Positions 6,708-29,511 of a DNA stretch of 37,925 nt are shown here, in pieces. The notes beneath the pieces are model-generated. The model had not been told where the DNA came from, made no database searches, and worked only from the letters and a program-made list of their open reading frames with translations. Numbering within the stretch: position 1 is the first letter of the stretch; each line of letters starts with the position of its first letter. The translations under genes and the position numbers were made by a program. The DNA is from Candidatus Dormiibacterota bacterium (GTDB lineage Bacteria; Acidobacteriota; Polarisedimenticolia; Gp22-AA2): assembly GCA_035635555.1 (NCBI GenBank), contig DASQAT010000025.1:1-37925 (forward strand), given 5' to 3'.

Positions 6708-6782
<75 letters not shown>

Positions 6783-6907: not shown

Positions 6908-6982
6908 GGCGGCGTAGCCAAGCGGTAAGGCAGAGGTCTGCAAAACCTCGATACATCGGTTCGATTCCGATCGCCGCCTCCA
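6908..6982 (+). tRNA. tRNA-Cys (anticodon GCA)
   Basis: The 75-base cloverleaf has acceptor stem GGCGGCG (6908-6914) with CGCCGCC (6972-6978). The anticodon arm GAGGTCTGCAAAACCTC has GCA in the loop, and the T arm is ATCGGTTCGATTCCGAT. Discriminator T6979 and encoded CCA follow at 6980-6982. Confidence 0.97.
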
Positions 6983-18305: not shown

Positions 18306-18367
18306 GGGATTGATCTCCTGCGGAGATCTTGACACGGCGCGGATTTGCGGGTCAATCCTTTTTCCGC

Positions 18368-18396
18368 ATTAAACTGCGCAATTGAATGCCGTAACG
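18368..18396 (-). promoter_or_regulatory. candidate promoter of mttB copy 1
   Basis: A good -10, TTTAAT (18373-18368), but the position 17 bases upstream (18396-18391) reads CGTTAC, a poor -35 that lies inside operator palindrome 18388-18398. A weak second candidate, TTGACC with CAAGAT, lies closer to the gene. The pattern suggests regulator-dependent transcription. Confidence 0.45.
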
Positions 18397-18398
18397 AC
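18388..18398. promoter_or_regulatory. operator palindrome, mttB1 proximal copy
   Basis: GCCGTAACGAC (minus strand GTCGTTACGGC) is an 11-base near-palindrome of the shared form GYYGTTACGRC, followed toward the gene by ATTCAATT. The centre lies about 32 bases before the predicted start, over the -35 position. Confidence 0.6.
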
Positions 18399-18418
18399 AA
18401 TGACGTCCCGGCGCGCAT

Positions 18419-18429
18419 GTCGTAACGGC
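18419..18429. promoter_or_regulatory. operator palindrome, mttB1 distal copy
   Basis: GTCGTAACGGC (minus strand GCCGTTACGAC) with flank CTCAAG on its gene-distal side. The centre is 31 bases from the proximal copy and about 63 bases before the predicted start. The 15-base core and flank CTCAAGCCGTTACGA are repeated exactly upstream of mttB2. Confidence 0.65.
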
Positions 18430-18485
18430 TTGAGATCCCACGATTCGCAACGCCGATGCGGAGGGCGGTCGACCGCGCCATCGAC

Positions 18486-18573: not shown

Positions 18574-18861
18574 GTGATCGAGTTTCTTTCGCCACGCGAG
18601 GATGACGACCTCCGCCTTGCCGGGACGAAGGGGGCGGCGTGGGCGCGCGTGATCCGTCTTTTTCTCGACGGTCCCCGGCTTCTCCTCGGATGGGACCTGG
18701 CGCGGTCGGACGACGAGATCGCGCGGCTCGCCGGTCTCGATGACGCGACCGCGCGGCGCGCCATCGACGAGGCGGTCCGCTGGTCGGTGGAGCACCGGCT
18801 GCATCTCCTCGGCTGGCAGGAGCCGGACGGCGGCTGGCGCTATTTCATGGCGGTCGGCTGA
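18574..18861 (+). CDS. small protein with winged-helix-like segment
   Basis: A 95-residue soluble protein with no family I recognise. GTG 18574 is preferred because GGACGAGGAGG lies just before it; the frame also opens at 18514. Residues about 46-71 (DDEIARLAGLDDATARRAID) look like a helix-turn-helix, followed by EAVRWSVEHRLHLLG and a turn then beta strand (DGGWRYFMAV), consistent with a small winged helix. It is divergent from mttB copy 1 and upstream of an FAD oxidoreductase on the same strand, a typical place for a local regulator. DNA binding is an inference from this pattern and position; there is no counterpart at the second mttB locus. Confidence 0.6.
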   Translation: MIEFLSPREDDDLRLAGTKGAAWARVIRLFLDGPRLLLGWDLARSDDEIARLAGLDDATARRAIDEAVRWSVEHRLHLLGWQEPDGGWRYFMAVG

Positions 18862-18973: not shown

Positions 18974-20569
18974 ATGGCGGGCGGCAAGCGGATCGCGATC
19001 ATCGGTGCCGGGCACAACGGTCTGGTGACCGCGAACCTGCTCGGCGAGGCGGGGCACCGGGTGACCGTGCTGGAGGCGCGCGCGATCGTCGGAGGCGCCT
19101 GTGTCTCCGAAGAGCTGTTCCCGGGCTACAAGGTCTCCTCCACGTCCTACGTCAGCACCCTGCTCATGCCCGAGGCGATCAGGCGCTTCGACCTGCCACG
19201 TCACGGCTACCAGGTCATCCGGCAGGACCCCGCCTTCTTCGTGCCGTTCCCGGACGGCCGGTCGATGACGCTGCGCGGCGACGAGCGCGACCTGCAGGAA
19301 ATCGCCAAATTCTCGCGCCAGGATGCCGGCGCATACCACGAGTTCCACTCCGCGCTCGAGAGGGTGGGCGAATTCGTCAAGCCGCTGCTGTTCAAGGCGC
19401 CGCCCCGCATCGACGGGCGCGCACCGCGCGACCTGTGGGATCTCCTGACGATGGGACTGGCGGCGCGCCGCCTCTCCGGCTACGACCTGCAGCTTCTCGT
19501 CCAGCTCGCGTCCCTGGGGATCGCGGACGTCCTCGACACCCGGTTCGAGTCGGAGGAGCTGAAGGCCTTCCTCTGCTCGCAGGCGGTCATCGGCGCTTAT
19601 GGAGGAGTGCACCAGCCCGGCACCGCCTTCCTTCTCCTGCACGACGTGTTCGGCGGTGTCGAAGGAGCCGCCGGAGTCTGGGGCGTCGTCGTCGGCGGCA
19701 TGGGGGCCATCACCCAGGCGCTCGCCTCCGCGGCCCGCGAGCGGGGTGTGGTCATCAGGACCGGGGCGCCCGTCGCGACGATCGAGCTCGGCGACGCGGG
19801 ACGGGTCGCGGGTGTCCGCCTCAGGAGCGGCGAAGTCGTGCCGGCCGACGTCATCGTCAGCAACGCGACGCCGCGCCGGACCTTCCTCGAGCTGCTCCCG
19901 GCGAGCGCCCTCCCCGCGCCGTTCGTGCAGCACATGGAGGGGTTCAAGGACCTGGGGGCGTCGCTGAAGGTGCATCTCGCGCTGTCGGCCCTGCCCGACT
20001 TCACGGCGATGCCCGGCAGGGAGCCCGGTCCGCAGCACCGCGGTCTCCTCAATTTCTGCCCGACGGTCGATTTCATCGAGCGGGCGTGGGACGACTGCAA
20101 GCGCGGAGCGTTCTCCTCCCGCCCGACCGTCGAGGCGTGCATCCACTCGGTCCTCGACCCGTCGTGCGCCCCTCCGGGGAGGCACATCATGACCTGCTTC
20201 GTGCAGTACGGTCCGCGCCACCTGAAGGAGGGAGGCTGGGAGAGCCTGAAGGAGACCGTCGCCGACCGCGTCGTCGCCGAAATCGCGCGCTACGCCCCGA
20301 ACTTCCCCGGCTCCGTCATCGCCCGGCACGTCTACACCCCGGAGGATCTCGAGACGATCTTCGGCCTGACCGGCGGGAACATCTATCACGGCGCCATGAC
20401 ACCGGACCAGCTGTTCACCTTCCGCCCGGCCCCCGGCTTCGCCGACTACCGCACGCCGCTCAAGAATCTCTACCTGTGCGGTTCCGGCACGCACCCCGGC
20501 GGGGGCGTCTGGGGCGCCCCGGGCTGGAACTCGGCCCACGAAATCCTGCGCGACATCGGCCGCGGCTGA
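18974..20569 (+). CDS. PYROXD2/CrtI-like FAD-dependent oxidoreductase, copy 1
   Basis: A 531-residue flavoprotein of the phytoene-desaturase/PYROXD2 group (COG1233). The FAD Rossmann motif is G11-A-G13-H-N-G16 (IAIIGAGHNGLVTANLLGEA), followed by GGACVSEELFPGYKVSSTSY, and the C-terminal FAD motif is NLYLCGSGTHPGGGVWGAPG. The middle has an insertion with FFVPFPDGRSMTLRGDERDL. Human PYROXD2 has been linked in genetic studies to methylated amine levels (recalled, not checked), which fits the neighbouring MttB homologue. A carotenoid role is unlikely, as no other carotenoid gene is present. The ATG follows a weak AAGGGGC site. It is a paralogue of the minus-strand gene at 24786, with the same spacing of motifs. 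Confidence 0.85.
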   Translation: MAGGKRIAIIGAGHNGLVTANLLGEAGHRVTVLEARAIVGGACVSEELFPGYKVSSTSYVSTLLMPEAIRRFDLPRHGYQVIRQDPAFFVPFPDGRSMTLRGDERDLQEIAKFSRQDAGAYHEFHSALERVGEFVKPLLFKAPPRIDGRAPRDLWDLLTMGLAARRLSGYDLQLLVQLASLGIADVLDTRFESEELKAFLCSQAVIGAYGGVHQPGTAFLLLHDVFGGVEGAAGVWGVVVGGMGAITQALASAARERGVVIRTGAPVATIELGDAGRVAGVRLRSGEVVPADVIVSNATPRRTFLELLPASALPAPFVQHMEGFKDLGASLKVHLALSALPDFTAMPGREPGPQHRGLLNFCPTVDFIERAWDDCKRGAFSSRPTVEACIHSVLDPSCAPPGRHIMTCFVQYGPRHLKEGGWESLKETVADRVVAEIARYAPNFPGSVIARHVYTPEDLETIFGLTGGNIYHGAMTPDQLFTFRPAPGFADYRTPLKNLYLCGSGTHPGGGVWGAPGWNSAHEILRDIGRG

Positions 20570-23248: not shown

Positions 23249-24789
23249 CCGCCACGGTCCCCGCGACCGCGCCGAACACCGGGAGTGACGCGAGTCCGGA
23301 GGCGCCGGCGCGCTGGCTGGCCTGGGCCGCGGCGGCGCTCGGGATTCTGACCCTCGCGGTGTACGCGAGGGCGCTCGGCGCCGGATTCTTCTCCGACGAC
23401 TACGAGTGGCTCGGCCGCATGACGCCCGCTCTGGAGCGGCCCCTGTATGTCTTCCGCGTCTTCTACCGCGACTTCAATCCGGTCCTGCACCTGAGCTTCG
23501 TCCTCGATTACCTGCTCGGAGGAGGAACGGCCCCGGTCTTCCACGCAACGTCTCTCCTCCTGCACGCGGCGACCACGACGCTGGTCGTCCTTCTCTGCGC
23601 GCGTCTGGCCGGAAATGCCTGGGCCGCCCTCGGCGCGGGGCTTCTCTGGGGCACGGGCGTCCGCGTCTCCGAAGTCGTCATCTGGCCGGCGGCCCGCGGC
23701 CACGCTCTGGCCGCGCTGTTCATCCTCGCGGGACTCCTCGTCCTGACCGGGGCGTCGCGCAGAAGGGTCCTGTGGGCCGCGCCCCTGTTCGCGGCCGGAT
23801 TGCTGACGAAAGAGGTGGCCTTCTTCCCGATGCTCCTGGCCCCCCTGTTCGCGCGCGACCGCTCCACGCGCCGGCACGCGGCGGCGGCCGTCGGCGTCCT
23901 GGCCGCGCTCTTCATCGTCTTCAACCTGCTCTTCAAGTCCGACTACCACACGTCGGGAGAGGGGGTGCGGGCGACCCTCCTCAAGCTGCCCTTCGTCGTG
24001 CTGCGCCCGATCGGCCTCGGAGATCTGTACGACTTCAGCGCCTCCGGCTTCGTGCTGTTCGCGGCGGCCGGGGCTGGCGTGTTCCTGCTCGGCTGGAATT
24101 CCCGGCCCGCCCGGCTCGGGCTTCTCTGGATCGCGCTGTGCACGGCGCCGATCCTGCCGCTCGAGAAGGTGTCGTCGCGCTACCTGTACCTCCTGTCGAT
24201 CGGCTACCCGCTTCTGGCCTGCGGCCTGCTCGCCCACCCCCGGTTCCCGACGCTGTCCGGCCCCATGAGGAGAGCGGCGGTCGCTCTGGGCGGGGTGGCC
24301 GTGGTCCTCCTGGCGGTGACCAACGCGCTCCTCGTGCAGCGCGAGATCGCCGACTACGGCATCCTGGCGCAGCCGTACGACGCCTGCTTCCGGACGCTGC
24401 GCGGTCCCGCGCTGGCGCTCTCACCCGGCGAGACCCTGGTCGTCGCCGAGACGCAGCCGCGCGCGGTGATCCCCTTCCTGGCCGGTCTGATGGAGGAGAG
24501 AGGGAACATCCGGAAACTGATACCCGAGCGCGCCGACGGCGTGGGGGGGCTGATCGGCCTCGCCGACCTCGTCAACGCGGCGCGGCCCGCACGCACGGGA
24601 GCGCTGGCGGTTGTCGCAGACCCGGCGCCGCAGGGACCGCGGCGGATCTATCTCTGGGACGGTCGCACCGCCGTCCTGGCCGAGGCGCTCCCGGACTCCG
24701 CCGCCGGGCGGGTCCTCGCGGCGAGGCTCGTCCCGTCGCCGGTTTTCTTCCAGCAGGACGGCAGCGCGCCCCTCCGCAACCCGCGCTAA
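23245..24789 (+). CDS. second polytopic GT-C-like membrane protein
   Basis: A 514-residue membrane protein starting at TTG 23245, overlapping the previous stop by four bases (TTGA). After a short Ala/Pro-rich N-terminus it has about ten spans and the GT-C-like loop motif FFSDDYEWLGRM (paired Asp after the first span), then RDFNPVLHLSFVLDYLLGG, PVFHATSLLLHAATTTLVVL and GNAWAALGAGLLWG. The C-terminal 130 residues are soluble. The family resembles O-antigen or protein O-mannosyl transferase-like proteins with TPR-type relatives. Its TAA stop overlaps the minus-strand TAG of the next gene in CTAA. Because the TTG is the only start near the overlap, coupling to the upstream gene is likely. Confidence 0.7.
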   Translation: MTATVPATAPNTGSDASPEAPARWLAWAAAALGILTLAVYARALGAGFFSDDYEWLGRMTPALERPLYVFRVFYRDFNPVLHLSFVLDYLLGGGTAPVFHATSLLLHAATTTLVVLLCARLAGNAWAALGAGLLWGTGVRVSEVVIWPAARGHALAALFILAGLLVLTGASRRRVLWAAPLFAAGLLTKEVAFFPMLLAPLFARDRSTRRHAAAAVGVLAALFIVFNLLFKSDYHTSGEGVRATLLKLPFVVLRPIGLGDLYDFSASGFVLFAAAGAGVFLLGWNSRPARLGLLWIALCTAPILPLEKVSSRYLYLLSIGYPLLACGLLAHPRFPTLSGPMRRAAVALGGVAVVLLAVTNALLVQREIADYGILAQPYDACFRTLRGPALALSPGETLVVAETQPRAVIPFLAGLMEERGNIRKLIPERADGVGGLIGLADLVNAARPARTGALAVVADPAPQGPRRIYLWDGRTAVLAEALPDSAAGRVLAARLVPSPVFFQQDGSAPLRNPR

Positions 24790-26387
24790 CGCCTCACGTC
24801 GCGCAGGATCTCGCGGGCGGCGTTCTTGCCGGGCGCCCCCATGACGCCGCCGCCGGGGTGCGCGCCGGAGCCGCACAGGTAGAGACCGCGGATCGGCGTG
24901 CGGTAATTGGCCCAGCGCGGCGCCGGGCGCAGGAAGAAGAGCTGGTCGGGGGTCATCTCGCCATGGAAGATGTTCCCCTCCGTGAGGCCGAAGATCTTTT
25001 CCAGGTCCCACGGGCTCAGGACCTCGCGCGCGATGATCGCCTTCTTGATGTTCGGGGCGTATTGCGCGAGGTTGTCGATGATCATGTCTCCCACCTTCTC
25101 GCGCACCTGGTCCCAGGTCCCTTCTTTCAGCTTGTAGGGGCCGTACTGCACGAACAGCGACATGACGTGGTGCCCCTTCGGGCAGAGGGTGTCGTCGAGG
25201 GTCGAGGCGACGTTGCCGTCGATCAGAGGGTGGGCCGACGGACGACCGTACTTGAGATCGTCGTAGGCGCGCTCGAGGTACTCGATCGACGGAGCGATCT
25301 CGAACATGGCCGGCTGGTGCGGCGCCTTCGGGTCCTGTCCGGGGAGGCACGTCCAGTCCGGCAGCTCGGACAGGGCGCAGTTGACCTTGATCGACGATCC
25401 CTGGATCCGGAACTTGCGGATCGACTCGGTGAATTCATCCGACAGCGTCCCCTTGTCGCACATCTTCAGGAAGGTCCGGTGCGGGTCGAGGTTGCTGGCC
25501 ACCAGGCGCGCGCGGACTTCGTCGCCGTTCGCGAGGTGCACGCCGCGGCAGACGCCCCCCTCGACGATGAACCGGCCCACCTCGGCGCTGGTCTTCACCT
25601 CGACGCCCAGGTCCTGGACCGATCGCAGCAGCGCGTTGGCGATGCCGCTCATGCCCCCCTTGACATAGCCCCAGGCGCCGGGCTGCCCTTCGATGCTGCT
25701 GCCGATCGAGTGGTGCAGCATGACGGCCGCCGAGCCGGGGGACATCGGTCCGACGCAGGTGCCGATGAGACCGTTGAGGGCCATCGCCGCCTTGACCTCG
25801 TCCGATTCGAAGCGCCGCGACAGGTAGTCGTCGCAGGAGGCGGTCATCAGCTCCATGAAGTGCTTCAGCTTCCTGTCGCCGAGCTTCAACAGCCGCCGCC
25901 CGAGCTTCCCGAACTCGAGGAGCTCGCGCAGGCCGCGCGGCGGGAACATCGGCGGGGTGGTGCGCAGGATCTCGTCCACGAACGGCTGCAGCTCGGCCAG
26001 GTCGGCGTTGAAGCGGCCGTACGCCTCGGCATCCTTCTTCGAGAACTTGGCGATCTCCCTCTTCGTCTTGTCCTCGTCCGCCGACCAGAGCATGTAGCGG
26101 CCGTCGGGGTAGGGATAGAACGAGTGGGGCTCGGGCACGAGGGTCTGGAAGCCGTACTCCTTCATCTTGAAATCGCGGATGACCTCGGGAAGAAGAAGAC
26201 TGCAGACGTATGAAGTCCGAGTGACGCGGTACCCCGGGATGAGCTCTTCGGTGACGCAGGCGCCGCCGACGATCGGGCGGCGTTCGAGCACCAGGACCTT
26301 GAGCCGCTCCTTCGCCAGGTACCCGGCAGCGATCAGGCCATTGTGGCCGCCTCCCACGACGATGGCGTCGTAGCGCGCCTGTGTCAT
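24786..26387 (-). CDS. PYROXD2/CrtI-like FAD-dependent oxidoreductase, copy 2
   Basis: A 533-residue paralogue of the gene at 18974, with the same motif order: G12-G-G-H-N-G17 (YDAIVVGGGHNGLIAAGYLA), GGACVTEELIPGYRVTRTSY, HSFYPYPDGRYMLWS and the C-terminal YLCGSGAHPGGGVMGAPG. AAGGGGTG precedes the ATG. It is divergent from mttB copy 2, and the shared 261-base gap holds the paired operator palindromes plus a leader hairpin. The predicted reaction is FAD-dependent oxidation or dehydrogenation of an amine-like or isoprenoid-like substrate. The arrangement beside mttB supports an amine, but no substrate-binding residues can be named. The stop codon TAG shares bases with the convergent TAA stop. 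Confidence 0.85.
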   Translation of the reverse strand: MTQARYDAIVVGGGHNGLIAAGYLAKERLKVLVLERRPIVGGACVTEELIPGYRVTRTSYVCSLLLPEVIRDFKMKEYGFQTLVPEPHSFYPYPDGRYMLWSADEDKTKREIAKFSKKDAEAYGRFNADLAELQPFVDEILRTTPPMFPPRGLRELLEFGKLGRRLLKLGDRKLKHFMELMTASCDDYLSRRFESDEVKAAMALNGLIGTCVGPMSPGSAAVMLHHSIGSSIEGQPGAWGYVKGGMSGIANALLRSVQDLGVEVKTSAEVGRFIVEGGVCRGVHLANGDEVRARLVASNLDPHRTFLKMCDKGTLSDEFTESIRKFRIQGSSIKVNCALSELPDWTCLPGQDPKAPHQPAMFEIAPSIEYLERAYDDLKYGRPSAHPLIDGNVASTLDDTLCPKGHHVMSLFVQYGPYKLKEGTWDQVREKVGDMIIDNLAQYAPNIKKAIIAREVLSPWDLEKIFGLTEGNIFHGEMTPDQLFFLRPAPRWANYRTPIRGLYLCGSGAHPGGGVMGAPGKNAAREILRDVRR

Positions 26388-26424: not shown

Positions 26425-26442
26425 GTTTCATGCTGAAGGAAC

Positions 26443-26448
26443 AATCTA
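26443..26448 (-). promoter_or_regulatory. -10 element of oxidoreductase copy 2
   Basis: TAGATT on the minus strand; the site 17 bases upstream reads GACCTG, a poor -35. The start is predicted near 26436, which puts the operator at 26491-26501 about 60 bases upstream. Confidence 0.45.
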
Positions 26449-26490
26449 GCACAGGGATCGGGACACAGGTCCCTGACGCGGACGACCTTT

Positions 26491-26501
26491 GCTGTTACGG
26501 C
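26491..26501. promoter_or_regulatory. operator palindrome in the copy-2 gap, left
   Basis: GCTGTTACGGC, flanked on the right by TTCAATT, as in the proximal copy at mttB1 (there ATTCAATT). Centre 42 bases from the right copy. Confidence 0.6.
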
Positions 26502-26532
26502 TTCAATTTCCGCGGATCCGCGTCATTCTCAA

Positions 26533-26543
26533 GCCGTTACGAC
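26533..26543. promoter_or_regulatory. operator palindrome in the copy-2 gap, right
   Basis: GCCGTTACGAC within CTCAAGCCGTTACGACA, identical over these 17 bases to the distal site of mttB1 read on its coding strand. It sits about 73 bases before the predicted mttB2 start. Confidence 0.65.
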
Positions 26544-26574: not shown

Positions 26575-26604
26575 TTGCGCCGGCAGGCCGATGGCGAGGA
26601 TAAT
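26575..26604 (+). promoter_or_regulatory. candidate promoter of mttB copy 2
   Basis: TTGCGC (26575-26580), 18-base spacer, GATAAT (26599-26604). The start near 26611 gives a leader of about 38 bases that includes GGAGGAGG before ATG 26649. Confidence 0.5.
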
Positions 26605-26648
26605 TTATGCCACGTCACCATCATGGAGCGGGTGCGGAGGAGGTCTTC

Positions 26649-28091
26649 ATGGTCCCCGAGGTCAGGATCCTGAGCGACGAGGAAGTGCGGCTGATGCACA
26701 CGCGGGCGCTCGACATCCTCGAGAAGGTCGGCATCAAGTACGAGAGCACGCGGGCCCTCGACCTCCTCGCCGAGCACGGCCAGAGGGTCGACCACGACAA
26801 GGGGCTGGCGTGGCTCGAGCCGGACCTCGTCCAGAAGTGCATCGAATCGACGCCGCGCGTCATCACGCTCGCCGGGCGCGATCCGAAGCACGATCTGCGG
26901 ACGGACGGGAAGCATCTGTATGTGACCACCAACGGCCAGGCGACGTTCACGCAGGACTACAAGACAGGCGTTCGACGCCAGGGACTGGTGCAGGACCTGC
27001 GCGACTCGACCAAGGCGGCGCACTACATCGACGTGGTCGATTACGTCTGGCCGATGGTCGTGCCGTTCGACGTGCCGGGGCCGAGCCGCGTGCTGCACGA
27101 GATGTACCACTCGTTCGCCATGACCTCGAAGCACATCCAGCACGAGATCCAGCTTCCCGAGCACGTGCCGTTCGCCCTGGAGATGCTGGAGATCCTCGCG
27201 GGCAGCAAGAACGAGCTGAAGCGCCGGCCCCCGTTCTCGATCGTCGCCTGCACCGTGTCCCCCCTGCAGCACGAGCCGAAGATGGCCGACCTGTGCATCG
27301 ACATGGCGCGCGCCGGCATCCCGATCGTCATCTGGCCGATGCCGCTCACGGGGGCCACCGCGCCCGTGACCGTGCCCGGCACCTGCCTGATGAGCCTGAT
27401 CGAGTTCCTGTCGGGTGTCGTCCTGTTCCAGCTCGCCGCCCCCGGCTGCCCGCTGATCTACCCTCTCGGCCCCGAGGTCCTGGACATGCGCTCGGGAATG
27501 GCGGTGTGCGGCAGCCCGGAGATCCCCCTGTTCAATCTGATCCTCGGACAGATGGCGAAGTTCTACAATGTCCCGGCGCTCGGGGTCGGTCTGAACTCGG
27601 ACGCCAAGATCCCGGGCGTGCAGGCGTCGTACGAGTCGATGCACACCGGCATGGCGGCCGCCCTCTCGGGCGCGGACCTGCTCGTGGGGATCGGCATCCT
27701 GGACGACAACAACACGATGTCGCTCACCGAGATGGTCATCGAGGCCGAGGTCGCCCGCATGGTAAAGCGGATCCGCGACGGGGTCGTCGTGAACGACGAG
27801 ACGCTCATGGCGAATCTGATCGAGAAGGCCGGGCCGGGGCAGCACTTCCTCGGGTTCAAGGAGACGCTGCACGGCCTGAAGACGGGCGCCGTGTTCTTCC
27901 CGAAGTTCTCCTACCGCAGCACGTACGACAAGTTCTTCGAGGAAGGGCACGACGAGATCGAGACCGCGCGCGCGGAGGTCGACCGGCTCCTGGCCCTCCC
28001 CGATCCCGACCCGCTTCCGCCCGAGGTCGACCGCGAGCTGAAGCGGATCCTCGCGGCCGCCGACAAGGCATGCGCCGAATCGGCCGCCTGA
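26649..28091 (+). CDS. MttB-family (non-pyrrolysine) methyltransferase, copy 2
   Basis: A 480-residue COG5598 protein, paralogous to copy 1 along its length: shared GATAPVTVPGTCLMSLIEFL, CPLIYPLGPEVLDMRSG, NSDAKIPGVQASYESMHTGM (from about residue 316) and DLLVGIGILDDNNTMSL. No amber codon interrupts the frame, so no pyrrolysine. The C-terminal parts differ from copy 1 (FPKFSYRSTYDKFFEEGHDE here), which may reflect another substrate. ATG 26649 is preferred to ATG 26607 for its GGAGGAGG site and position after the predicted start. It probably transfers a methyl group from a quaternary or methylated amine to a corrinoid protein encoded elsewhere. A PUT-like permease gene follows ten bases downstream, likely in one operon. 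Confidence 0.88.
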   Translation: MVPEVRILSDEEVRLMHTRALDILEKVGIKYESTRALDLLAEHGQRVDHDKGLAWLEPDLVQKCIESTPRVITLAGRDPKHDLRTDGKHLYVTTNGQATFTQDYKTGVRRQGLVQDLRDSTKAAHYIDVVDYVWPMVVPFDVPGPSRVLHEMYHSFAMTSKHIQHEIQLPEHVPFALEMLEILAGSKNELKRRPPFSIVACTVSPLQHEPKMADLCIDMARAGIPIVIWPMPLTGATAPVTVPGTCLMSLIEFLSGVVLFQLAAPGCPLIYPLGPEVLDMRSGMAVCGSPEIPLFNLILGQMAKFYNVPALGVGLNSDAKIPGVQASYESMHTGMAAALSGADLLVGIGILDDNNTMSLTEMVIEAEVARMVKRIRDGVVVNDETLMANLIEKAGPGQHFLGFKETLHGLKTGAVFFPKFSYRSTYDKFFEEGHDEIETARAEVDRLLALPDPDPLPPEVDRELKRILAAADKACAESAA

Positions 28092-28101
28092 GCCGCGCCT
28101 C

Positions 28102-29511
28102 TTGACGCCGGCCTCGGAACCCCCCGGGGAGCCCCCGGGCGCCGCTCGGCCTCCAGGGCCCTTCCCCTCGATCCACGCCCGGCGCGGCCTGCGCCTCATC
28201 CCCCTGATCGGCGTCATCTACTGCCTGTCGGCCGCCGGCCCCGCCGGAATCGAAGCGATGGTGCCGGCCTCCGGCCCGGGGCTGACCCTCATCCTGATCC
28301 TGCTGCTGCCGATCTTCTACGGCCTGCCCCTGGGTCTGGCGAGCGGCGAGATGAACAGCCGCTATCCCGTCGAGGGGGGCTACTACCGCTGGATCAAGGA
28401 GGTGTTCGGCGACTTCTGGGGGTTCCAAGCCGGCTGGTGGTCGTGGCTCGGCGCCTTCTTCGACGGCGCCCTCTACGCCGTGTGGGTGGCGGAGTACTGC
28501 GACCCGTTCCTGCCCGAGGCGTGGGTGCGGCCCGCGCACTGGGTCGTCCCGATCGTCGTGATCGCGATCTGCACCTGGATCAACGTGCGCGGCATCGAGG
28601 TCGTCGGGTGGTCCACGATGCTGTTCAACATTTTCCTCCTGAGCCCGTTCGTCATCCTGTGCATCCTCGGAGTGTCGCACTGGCAGCACAACCCGATGGT
28701 GCCCATGCGACCGCCGGGCAAGGGGTGGCTGCCGGCGCTGGGGGTCGGCGCGCTGATGGGGATGTGGAACTACTCCGGCTACGAGTCGCTGTCGACCGCC
28801 GCGGAGGAGATCGAGAACCCGCGTCGCAACTACCTGCGCGCCATCCTGGTCGCCATCTTGATCACCGTGCCGACCTATATCATCCCGCTGGCGATCGGTC
28901 TCGCCGCCACACCCGACTGGACGACCATCAACGAGGGCTCGTTCACCGACATGGGAAGGATCATCGGCGGCCCGCTCCTCGCGCTCTGGATCTCAGCCGC
29001 GGCGATCGTCAGCAACTTCGCGCTGTCGAACGTCAACCTGCTGGCCTACTCCCGCGTCCCGTTCGCGATGGCGCAGGACGGATTCCTTCCCGCCGGCCTG
29101 ACCCGGCTGCACCGCAAGTTCGGCACCCCCTTCGTGTCGCTGATCGCGACGTCGATCTGCTACTGCCTGCTGACCTTCATGAACGTCGAGCAGCTCACCT
29201 CGATCGAGATGTGGGTGTTCTCGCCGCTGTACGTGATGATCTACCTGGCGCTCTGGCGTCTGCGCTGCCGCCCGGCGGCGGACGGCGCGAAGGAGAAGGG
29301 CTACGTCATCCCCGCCGGGCGGCGAGGCATCTGGCTCGTGATCCTGCCGCCGATCATCCTGATCGTGATGGCCATCGGAGGGAGCGCCGGTGAGTATCTC
29401 TGGACCGGTGGATCGGCGATCCTGAGCGGCTTCCTGCTGTACCCGCTCGCGGCGTGGTGGAAGAGACGGGGTGACGTCAGTCGAACGAGAGAGCGCGGTG
29501 CTCCTTCATGA
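28102..29511 (+). CDS. APC-superfamily amine/amino acid permease, PUT-like
   Basis: A 469-residue cytoplasmic-membrane transporter with about 12 spans, starting at TTG 28102 ten bases after mttB2. The N-terminal tail is Pro-rich; the first span contains GPAGIEAMVPASGPG, the unwound-helix motif of APC carriers. VEGGYYRWIKEVFGDFWGFQ, AGWWSWLGAFFDGALYAVWV matches the pattern of plant polyamine uptake (PUT/LAT-like) permeases more than classical amino acid antiporters. MWNYSGYESLSTAAEEIENP fits the substrate-site span of the family. Likely role: uptake of a cationic amine or amino acid used by the MttB/oxidoreductase module. Substrate is inferred from resemblance by eye. The last 35 bases overlap the end of the convergent CoA-binding protein gene. 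Confidence 0.85.
   Translation: MTPASEPPGEPPGAARPPGPFPSIHARRGLRLIPLIGVIYCLSAAGPAGIEAMVPASGPGLTLILILLLPIFYGLPLGLASGEMNSRYPVEGGYYRWIKEVFGDFWGFQAGWWSWLGAFFDGALYAVWVAEYCDPFLPEAWVRPAHWVVPIVVIAICTWINVRGIEVVGWSTMLFNIFLLSPFVILCILGVSHWQHNPMVPMRPPGKGWLPALGVGALMGMWNYSGYESLSTAAEEIENPRRNYLRAILVAILITVPTYIIPLAIGLAATPDWTTINEGSFTDMGRIIGGPLLALWISAAAIVSNFALSNVNLLAYSRVPFAMAQDGFLPAGLTRLHRKFGTPFVSLIATSICYCLLTFMNVEQLTSIEMWVFSPLYVMIYLALWRLRCRPAADGAKEKGYVIPAGRRGIWLVILPPIILIVMAIGGSAGEYLWTGGSAILSGFLLYPLAAWWKRRGDVSRTRERGAPS

Follow-up and report, generated by a model that had tools for sequence, protein, structure and literature searches.

The window, i.e. the whole 37,925-nt stretch of DNA analyzed here, contains two loci (A and B), each with a gene for a corrinoid methyltransferase of the MttB superfamily near a gene for an FAD oxidoreductase (Table 1). 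Superfamily membership (COG5598) is indicated by the PF06253 MTTB domain, which scores over its cut-off in both MttB-A and MttB-B. The two methyltransferases are 46% identical and the two oxidoreductases 45% identical. Assignment to the pyrrolysine-type trimethylamine methyltransferases was rejected because neither frame contains a stop (there is no in-frame amber) and the TIGR02369 score (∼400 bits) falls short of its cut-off (525). As judged from a ribosome site and a start that are conserved in relatives, MttB-B most likely starts at 26649, not at 26607. At locus A, the first divergent neighbor of mttB-A is a 95-codon ORF, the start region of which is conserved in several relatives, and the oxidoreductase gene follows it. 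Two tandem tRNA genes are found elsewhere in the window (6708-6779 and 6908-6979, + strand). A relative of MttB-B, 72% identical, is encoded in an Elusimicrobia MAG (L071, 10013-12836) and is followed there by the same kind of permease. The palindrome described below is absent from that locus, and a methionine-synthase activation domain adjoins the methyltransferase, for which horizontal transfer is possible.

Table 1. Genes, palindromes, and predicted promoters of the two mttB loci in the window
Feature	Position	Strand	Evidence and remarks
mttB-A, MttB-superfamily corrinoid methyltransferase, 502 codons	16797..18305	-	PF06253 2.7e-80 on longer frame; TIGR02369 6.7e-120, below cut-off
Predicted mttB-A promoter	18326..18355	-	-35 TTGACC 18355-18350, -10 CAAGAT 18331-18326; block conserved in alignment of 7 upstream regions of A; predicted from sequence
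Operator A proximal palindrome TTGTCGTTACGGCAT	18386..18400 (core 18388-18398)	-	centre 38 nt before -35 hexamer, ∼-74
Operator A distal palindrome AAGCCGTTACGACAT	18417..18431 (core 18419-18429)	-	centre ∼-105 from predicted transcription start; conserved in A orthologs, 8 genomes
95-codon ORF, divergent, between operator A and oxidoreductase	18574..18861	+	no Pfam match
FAD oxidoreductase A (CrtI/CrtO-like amine-oxidase fold)	18974..20569	+	PF01593 6e-23; NF045689 9e-76, below cut-off
FAD oxidoreductase B, divergent from mttB-B	24786..26387	-	PF01593 8e-14
Operator B distal palindrome AAGCCGTAACAGCAA	26489..26503 (core 26491-26501)	-	inverted vs proximal copy; centre ∼-115 from predicted mttB-B transcription start
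Operator B proximal palindrome AAGCCGTTACGACAA	26531..26545 (core 26533-26543)	+	centre 37 nt before -35 hexamer, ∼-73
Predicted mttB-B promoter	26575..26604	+	-35 TTGCGC 26575-26580, -10 GATAAT 26599-26604; conserved in 7 B orthologs; predicted from sequence
mttB-B, MttB-superfamily corrinoid methyltransferase, start corrected	26649..28091	+	PF06253 3e-88; ribosome site and start conserved
Amino-acid/polyamine-type permease, immediately downstream of mttB-B	28102..29511	+	PF13520 3.5e-38

Four copies of an 11-mer (GYYGTTACGRC), two in front of each mttB gene, had been reported in the window. All four are present (cores in Table 1) and they are its sole exact matches, when 0.06 would be expected and none of 100 shuffles reached four. 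The centre-to-centre spacings, 31 bp at A and 42 bp at B, were likewise given correctly. Other details needed revision. The motif is a palindrome, but its full length is about 15 bp rather than 11, and the identity between one copy at each locus extends over 18 bases (TCTCAAGCCGTTACGACA) rather than 17. TTCAATT, put forward as a second common element, shows no conservation among relatives at locus A, and at locus B it belongs to the AAGC arm (reversed) of the first copy, so we dropped it. Within the window the paired sites are confined to the two mttB loci, as had been noted, but a third pair lies outside, on contig C10 of the same genome, where it precedes a gene encoding an IclR-family regulator. 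The distal copies at B and iclR are inverted relative to the proximal B copy, and the distal A copy has an AAGC arm that runs in the same direction as the proximal B copy.

The iclR gene is the first of an operon that continues with genes for a corrinoid protein, a MetV-like protein, a MetF-like protein, a pterin-binding methyltransferase, and RACo. Its product has the HTH_IclR domain at the N terminus (PF09339, 2.2e-13) and IclR_C at the C terminus (PF01614, 1.9e-42), both over their cut-offs. The corrinoid protein matches TIGR02370 (7.6e-64) and is MtgC-like (3.2e-62), the MetV-like protein is a DUF5981 match, the MetF-like protein an MTHFR match, the methyltransferase a pterin-binding match, and the corrinoid reactivase was identified by its RACo domains. 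Gene order is kept in three relatives, and in a fourth as far as the contig reaches. By family membership, this operon supplies what is missing from the mttB loci, i.e. an acceptor for methyl groups, their transfer to folate, their oxidation, and reactivation of the corrinoid. The three promoters would therefore control a seemingly complete pathway for corrinoid-dependent demethylation.

The operators were compared in eight genomes of one family, i.e. this Acidobacteria genome and seven relatives, those with names being Acidobacteria gp22 and groundwater MAGs. Altogether, 44 palindromes were collected from 22 promoters. They share the consensus (A)(A/T)GCCGTWACRGCA(T), in which the central base is A or T. 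Three positions, counted from the centre, are invariant (44/44), namely G at -5, C at +5, and A at +6. Identity over the 2x15 palindrome columns is 82% (A), 89% (B), and 93% (iclR), compared with 40, 46, and 61%, respectively, for the spacers between palindromes and ∼53% for other upstream DNA. Both copies and their spacing, the conservation of which had been the proposed check, are thus kept upstream of orthologous mttB genes. All A loci have a spacing of 31 bp, and the B and iclR loci one of 42 or 43 bp (7/7 genomes for iclR), the longer distance being found in the B pairs of three relatives and in the iclR pair of one. Separately, a 17-mer (GTTGCGAATCGTGGGAT, window ∼18435-18451, - strand), whose distance from the distal A palindrome, measured to the palindrome centre, is 19 nt, shows 82% identity in seven aligned genomes and is without an equivalent at the B and iclR loci.

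Genome-wide, the single 11-mer is not enriched, with 13 matches in the 4.28-Mb genome against 21 for a reversed control. What is informative is thus the arrangement in pairs. Pairs were searched as patterns at two spacings, allowing at most two mismatches per pair. The 31-bp form (GYYGTWACRRC-N20-GYYGTWACRRC) occurs exactly once per genome in 8/8 genomes, always before the mttB-A ortholog. The 42-bp form (same pattern with N31) occurs in this genome only before mttB-B and before iclR; the relatives have it at the same two loci and show two extra matches, each with two mismatches and without shared context. When the 15-mer AAGCCGTWACRGCAT was searched in the eight genomes with at most one mismatch, 25 of 26 matches lay by position within the three loci and the remaining one at an unrelated place, apparently inside a gene. 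The motif is therefore neither missing from orthologous upstream regions nor widely and randomly spread, and as a pair it is practically confined to these loci. Candidate members of the regulon with a single site (one-mismatch 13-mer, this genome) were rejected on inspection of three, two being in coding frames (C55 and C16) and one being partnerless (C1). The palindrome is also absent near the other MttB paralogs of the genome (C21 and C3), which argues that the regulon is specific to the MttB-A/MttB-B pair. The C21 gene (75125-76618, L014) has a much higher family score (614 bits), and its matched frame contains, close to the beginning, a single in-frame TGA that is probably an upstream stop.

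At all three promoters, both palindromes lie wholly upstream of the predicted -35 hexamer. For each promoter, that hexamer begins at the same distance from the centre of the proximal palindrome in 7/7 genomes (Table 1; 25 nt at iclR), unlike the start codon, the distance of which from the operator varies widely. Relative to the predicted transcription start of iclR, its sites are at ∼-61 (proximal) and ∼-103 (distal). This invariant geometry suggests an activator, and the operator positions, as far as they can be read from sequence, look activator-like. The predicted -35 of the B and iclR promoters (TTGCGC) is weak, and that of mttB-A (TTGACC) is close to consensus. A sigma-54/NtrC-type enhancer pair was rejected, because none of the three alignments has an invariant GG-N10-GC (-24/-12), and so was an RNA element, Rfam finding only the two tRNAs in the window. 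On the other side of the B divergent region, upstream of the oxidoreductase gene, CAATCTAGCACA (window ∼26443-26455) is almost invariant in seven genomes and reads as an extended -10 (TGTGCTAGATT) with no clear -35.

Taken together, these findings support the predicted common regulator of both MttB modules, which may bind as two dimers on one face of the DNA. The IclR protein is the leading candidate, since no other regulator was detected at the three loci except an ECF sigma factor encoded 13 kb away from operator A, and since IclR has a pair in its own promoter and co-occurs with the mttB pair. Its orthologs (at least 89% identity) are found only in G000-G006, all of which have the MttB genes; the next best protein among 149 genomes is 40% identical and was set aside, none of the other operon genes being adjacent to it in its 3.7-kb locus. 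In the IclR family, autoregulation is usual and binding as a tetramer possible, and tandem sites are most commonly two helical turns apart (18-22), three and four turns also being over-represented (PMC8222616). Palindromes integral turns apart are also what we find (31 and 42/43 bp). We therefore consider that mttB-A, mttB-B, and the iclR operon probably form a dedicated regulon with three promoters, in which the pairs serve as operators and IclR is the activator that binds them.

Other explanations can be weighed against the same data. The copies might match by chance or belong to a dispersed repeat that has no role in regulation. This reading agrees with a single 11-mer at or below the genome background, but is refuted by the comparative data and is next to impossible, considering that the pairs are confined to three promoters and keep their spacing across four genera while the flanks have diverged. 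A second question is who binds. The palindrome fits neither of the published IclR consensus types (GKTYCRYW3-4RYGRAMC and TGRAACAN1-2TGTTYCA), from which IphR, PbaR, and TsdR are known exceptions, and upstream of A and B the best matches to these group 1/2 consensuses are no better than in shuffled sequence. In contrast, a separate palindrome of the first type in the iclR leader, downstream of the upstream iclR promoter (GTTTCAATATAAGGAAC, GTTTC-N7-GRAAC; L079 9747-9763, contig C10), fits 15/17 consensus positions, better than any other site of its type in that 20 kb. A GTTTC-N7/8-GRAAC-like site is also present in the oxidoreductase B leader (window 26425-26442), with similar sites in the B divergent region of several genomes and a perfect GTTTC-N7-GAAAC at B in two relatives. 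The same three promoters might therefore be controlled through the pairs by a regulator encoded elsewhere, e.g. a response regulator, in which case IclR would act on the GTTTC-N7-GAAAC palindrome that follows the upstream iclR promoter and perhaps on one in the oxidoreductase B leader. It also speaks against IclR that G007 has both mttB loci and no iclR was found there (in an assembly that is 63% complete). We nevertheless regard another binder as rather unlikely. The iclR leader element is poorly conserved (14-16/17 in seven genomes, with 67% identity vs 61% for the operator spacer), the GTTTC element is lacking at locus A in this genome, the three loci have no other regulator gene, and only IclR joins a pair in its own promoter with the genome distribution of the pathway.

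Whether IclR or not, the regulator could also be a repressor, an inducer freeing the pair and de-repressing the pathway. Many IclR proteins are repressors (PMC8222616), and the near-consensus -35 of mttB-A would suit such control. The position of the palindromes at an invariant distance wholly upstream of the -35 and the weak -35 at B and iclR speak against repression, which we judge improbable; IclR acting as an activator at the pairs appears reasonably likely.

With IclR as the activator, the system might work as follows. MttB-A and MttB-B would take methyl groups from one or two methylated nutrients to one corrinoid protein, from which they would pass to tetrahydrofolate; MetF/MetV would oxidize the folate-bound methyl, and RACo would reactivate the corrinoid. 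IclR would most likely occupy both palindromes, which are separated by three or four helical turns, in the form of two dimers or a single tetramer and, together with an effector (probably substrate or product), activate from upstream of the -35, its own promoter included. The divergent oxidoreductases are possibly under the same control. More tentatively, the system may represent a lineage-specific corrinoid demethylation regulon of uncultured Acidobacteria, in which an IclR-type activator uses a new class of operator (GCCGTWACRGC palindromes) and two substrate methyltransferases are coupled to one shared methyl-transfer operon. Since three-turn and inverted four-turn arrangements would both be accepted, one tetramer would then read two architectures.

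MttB-superfamily genes are widespread, mostly without a known substrate. The three-promoter regulon brings together in a single pathway both paralogs, the genes for methyl oxidation, and a corrinoid protein that is encoded on a different contig. The effector of its regulator would reveal the substrate. The 22 promoters with fixed geometry, moreover, form a clean natural set from a little-cultured phylum. In the literature searched, we found no link between IclR, MttB, and corrinoid proteins and no IclR-linked corrinoid demethylation regulon with this operator, and little on regulation of the MttB superfamily beyond sigma-54 control of mttB in Clostridia (PMC12316311), which differs from the candidate IclR regulator here.

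Control by a factor that regulates its own gene and acts at paired palindromes is of a known kind. Autoregulation and multiple palindromes at whole helical turns are described for the IclR family (PMC8222616), as at these loci. The nearest curated models of the candidate are TIGR02431 (1.1e-47) and BhcR NF045644 (1.7e-45), both well below their cut-offs. The activators PcaR, PcaU, PobR, and BhcR share its domain architecture, but have GTNCG-N5-6-CGNAC operators, whereas those here are centred on GCCGTWACRGC, and serve aromatic or glyoxylate metabolism rather than corrinoid-dependent demethylation. TtgV, one of the relatives of this IclR with a solved structure (2xrn), controls efflux. It is cited for asymmetric binding as a tetramer (PMC8222616), and its two dimers on one operator provide a model that resembles the paired sites, although here the tetramer is putative and the centres are 31 or 42/43 bp apart. 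As for the enzymes, the MtgB/MtgC, MtpB, MtcB, and MtyB systems (for glycine betaine, carnitine, and related compounds) likewise use MttB-superfamily methyltransferases without an in-frame amber, the MtgC-like corrinoid protein and RACo are present here as well, and the nearest solved MttB structures include a glycine betaine methyltransferase (9yce). Unlike in MtgB/MtgC-type systems, there are two MttB paralogs, each near an FAD oxidoreductase, and the genes are split over separate contigs and united by common operators.
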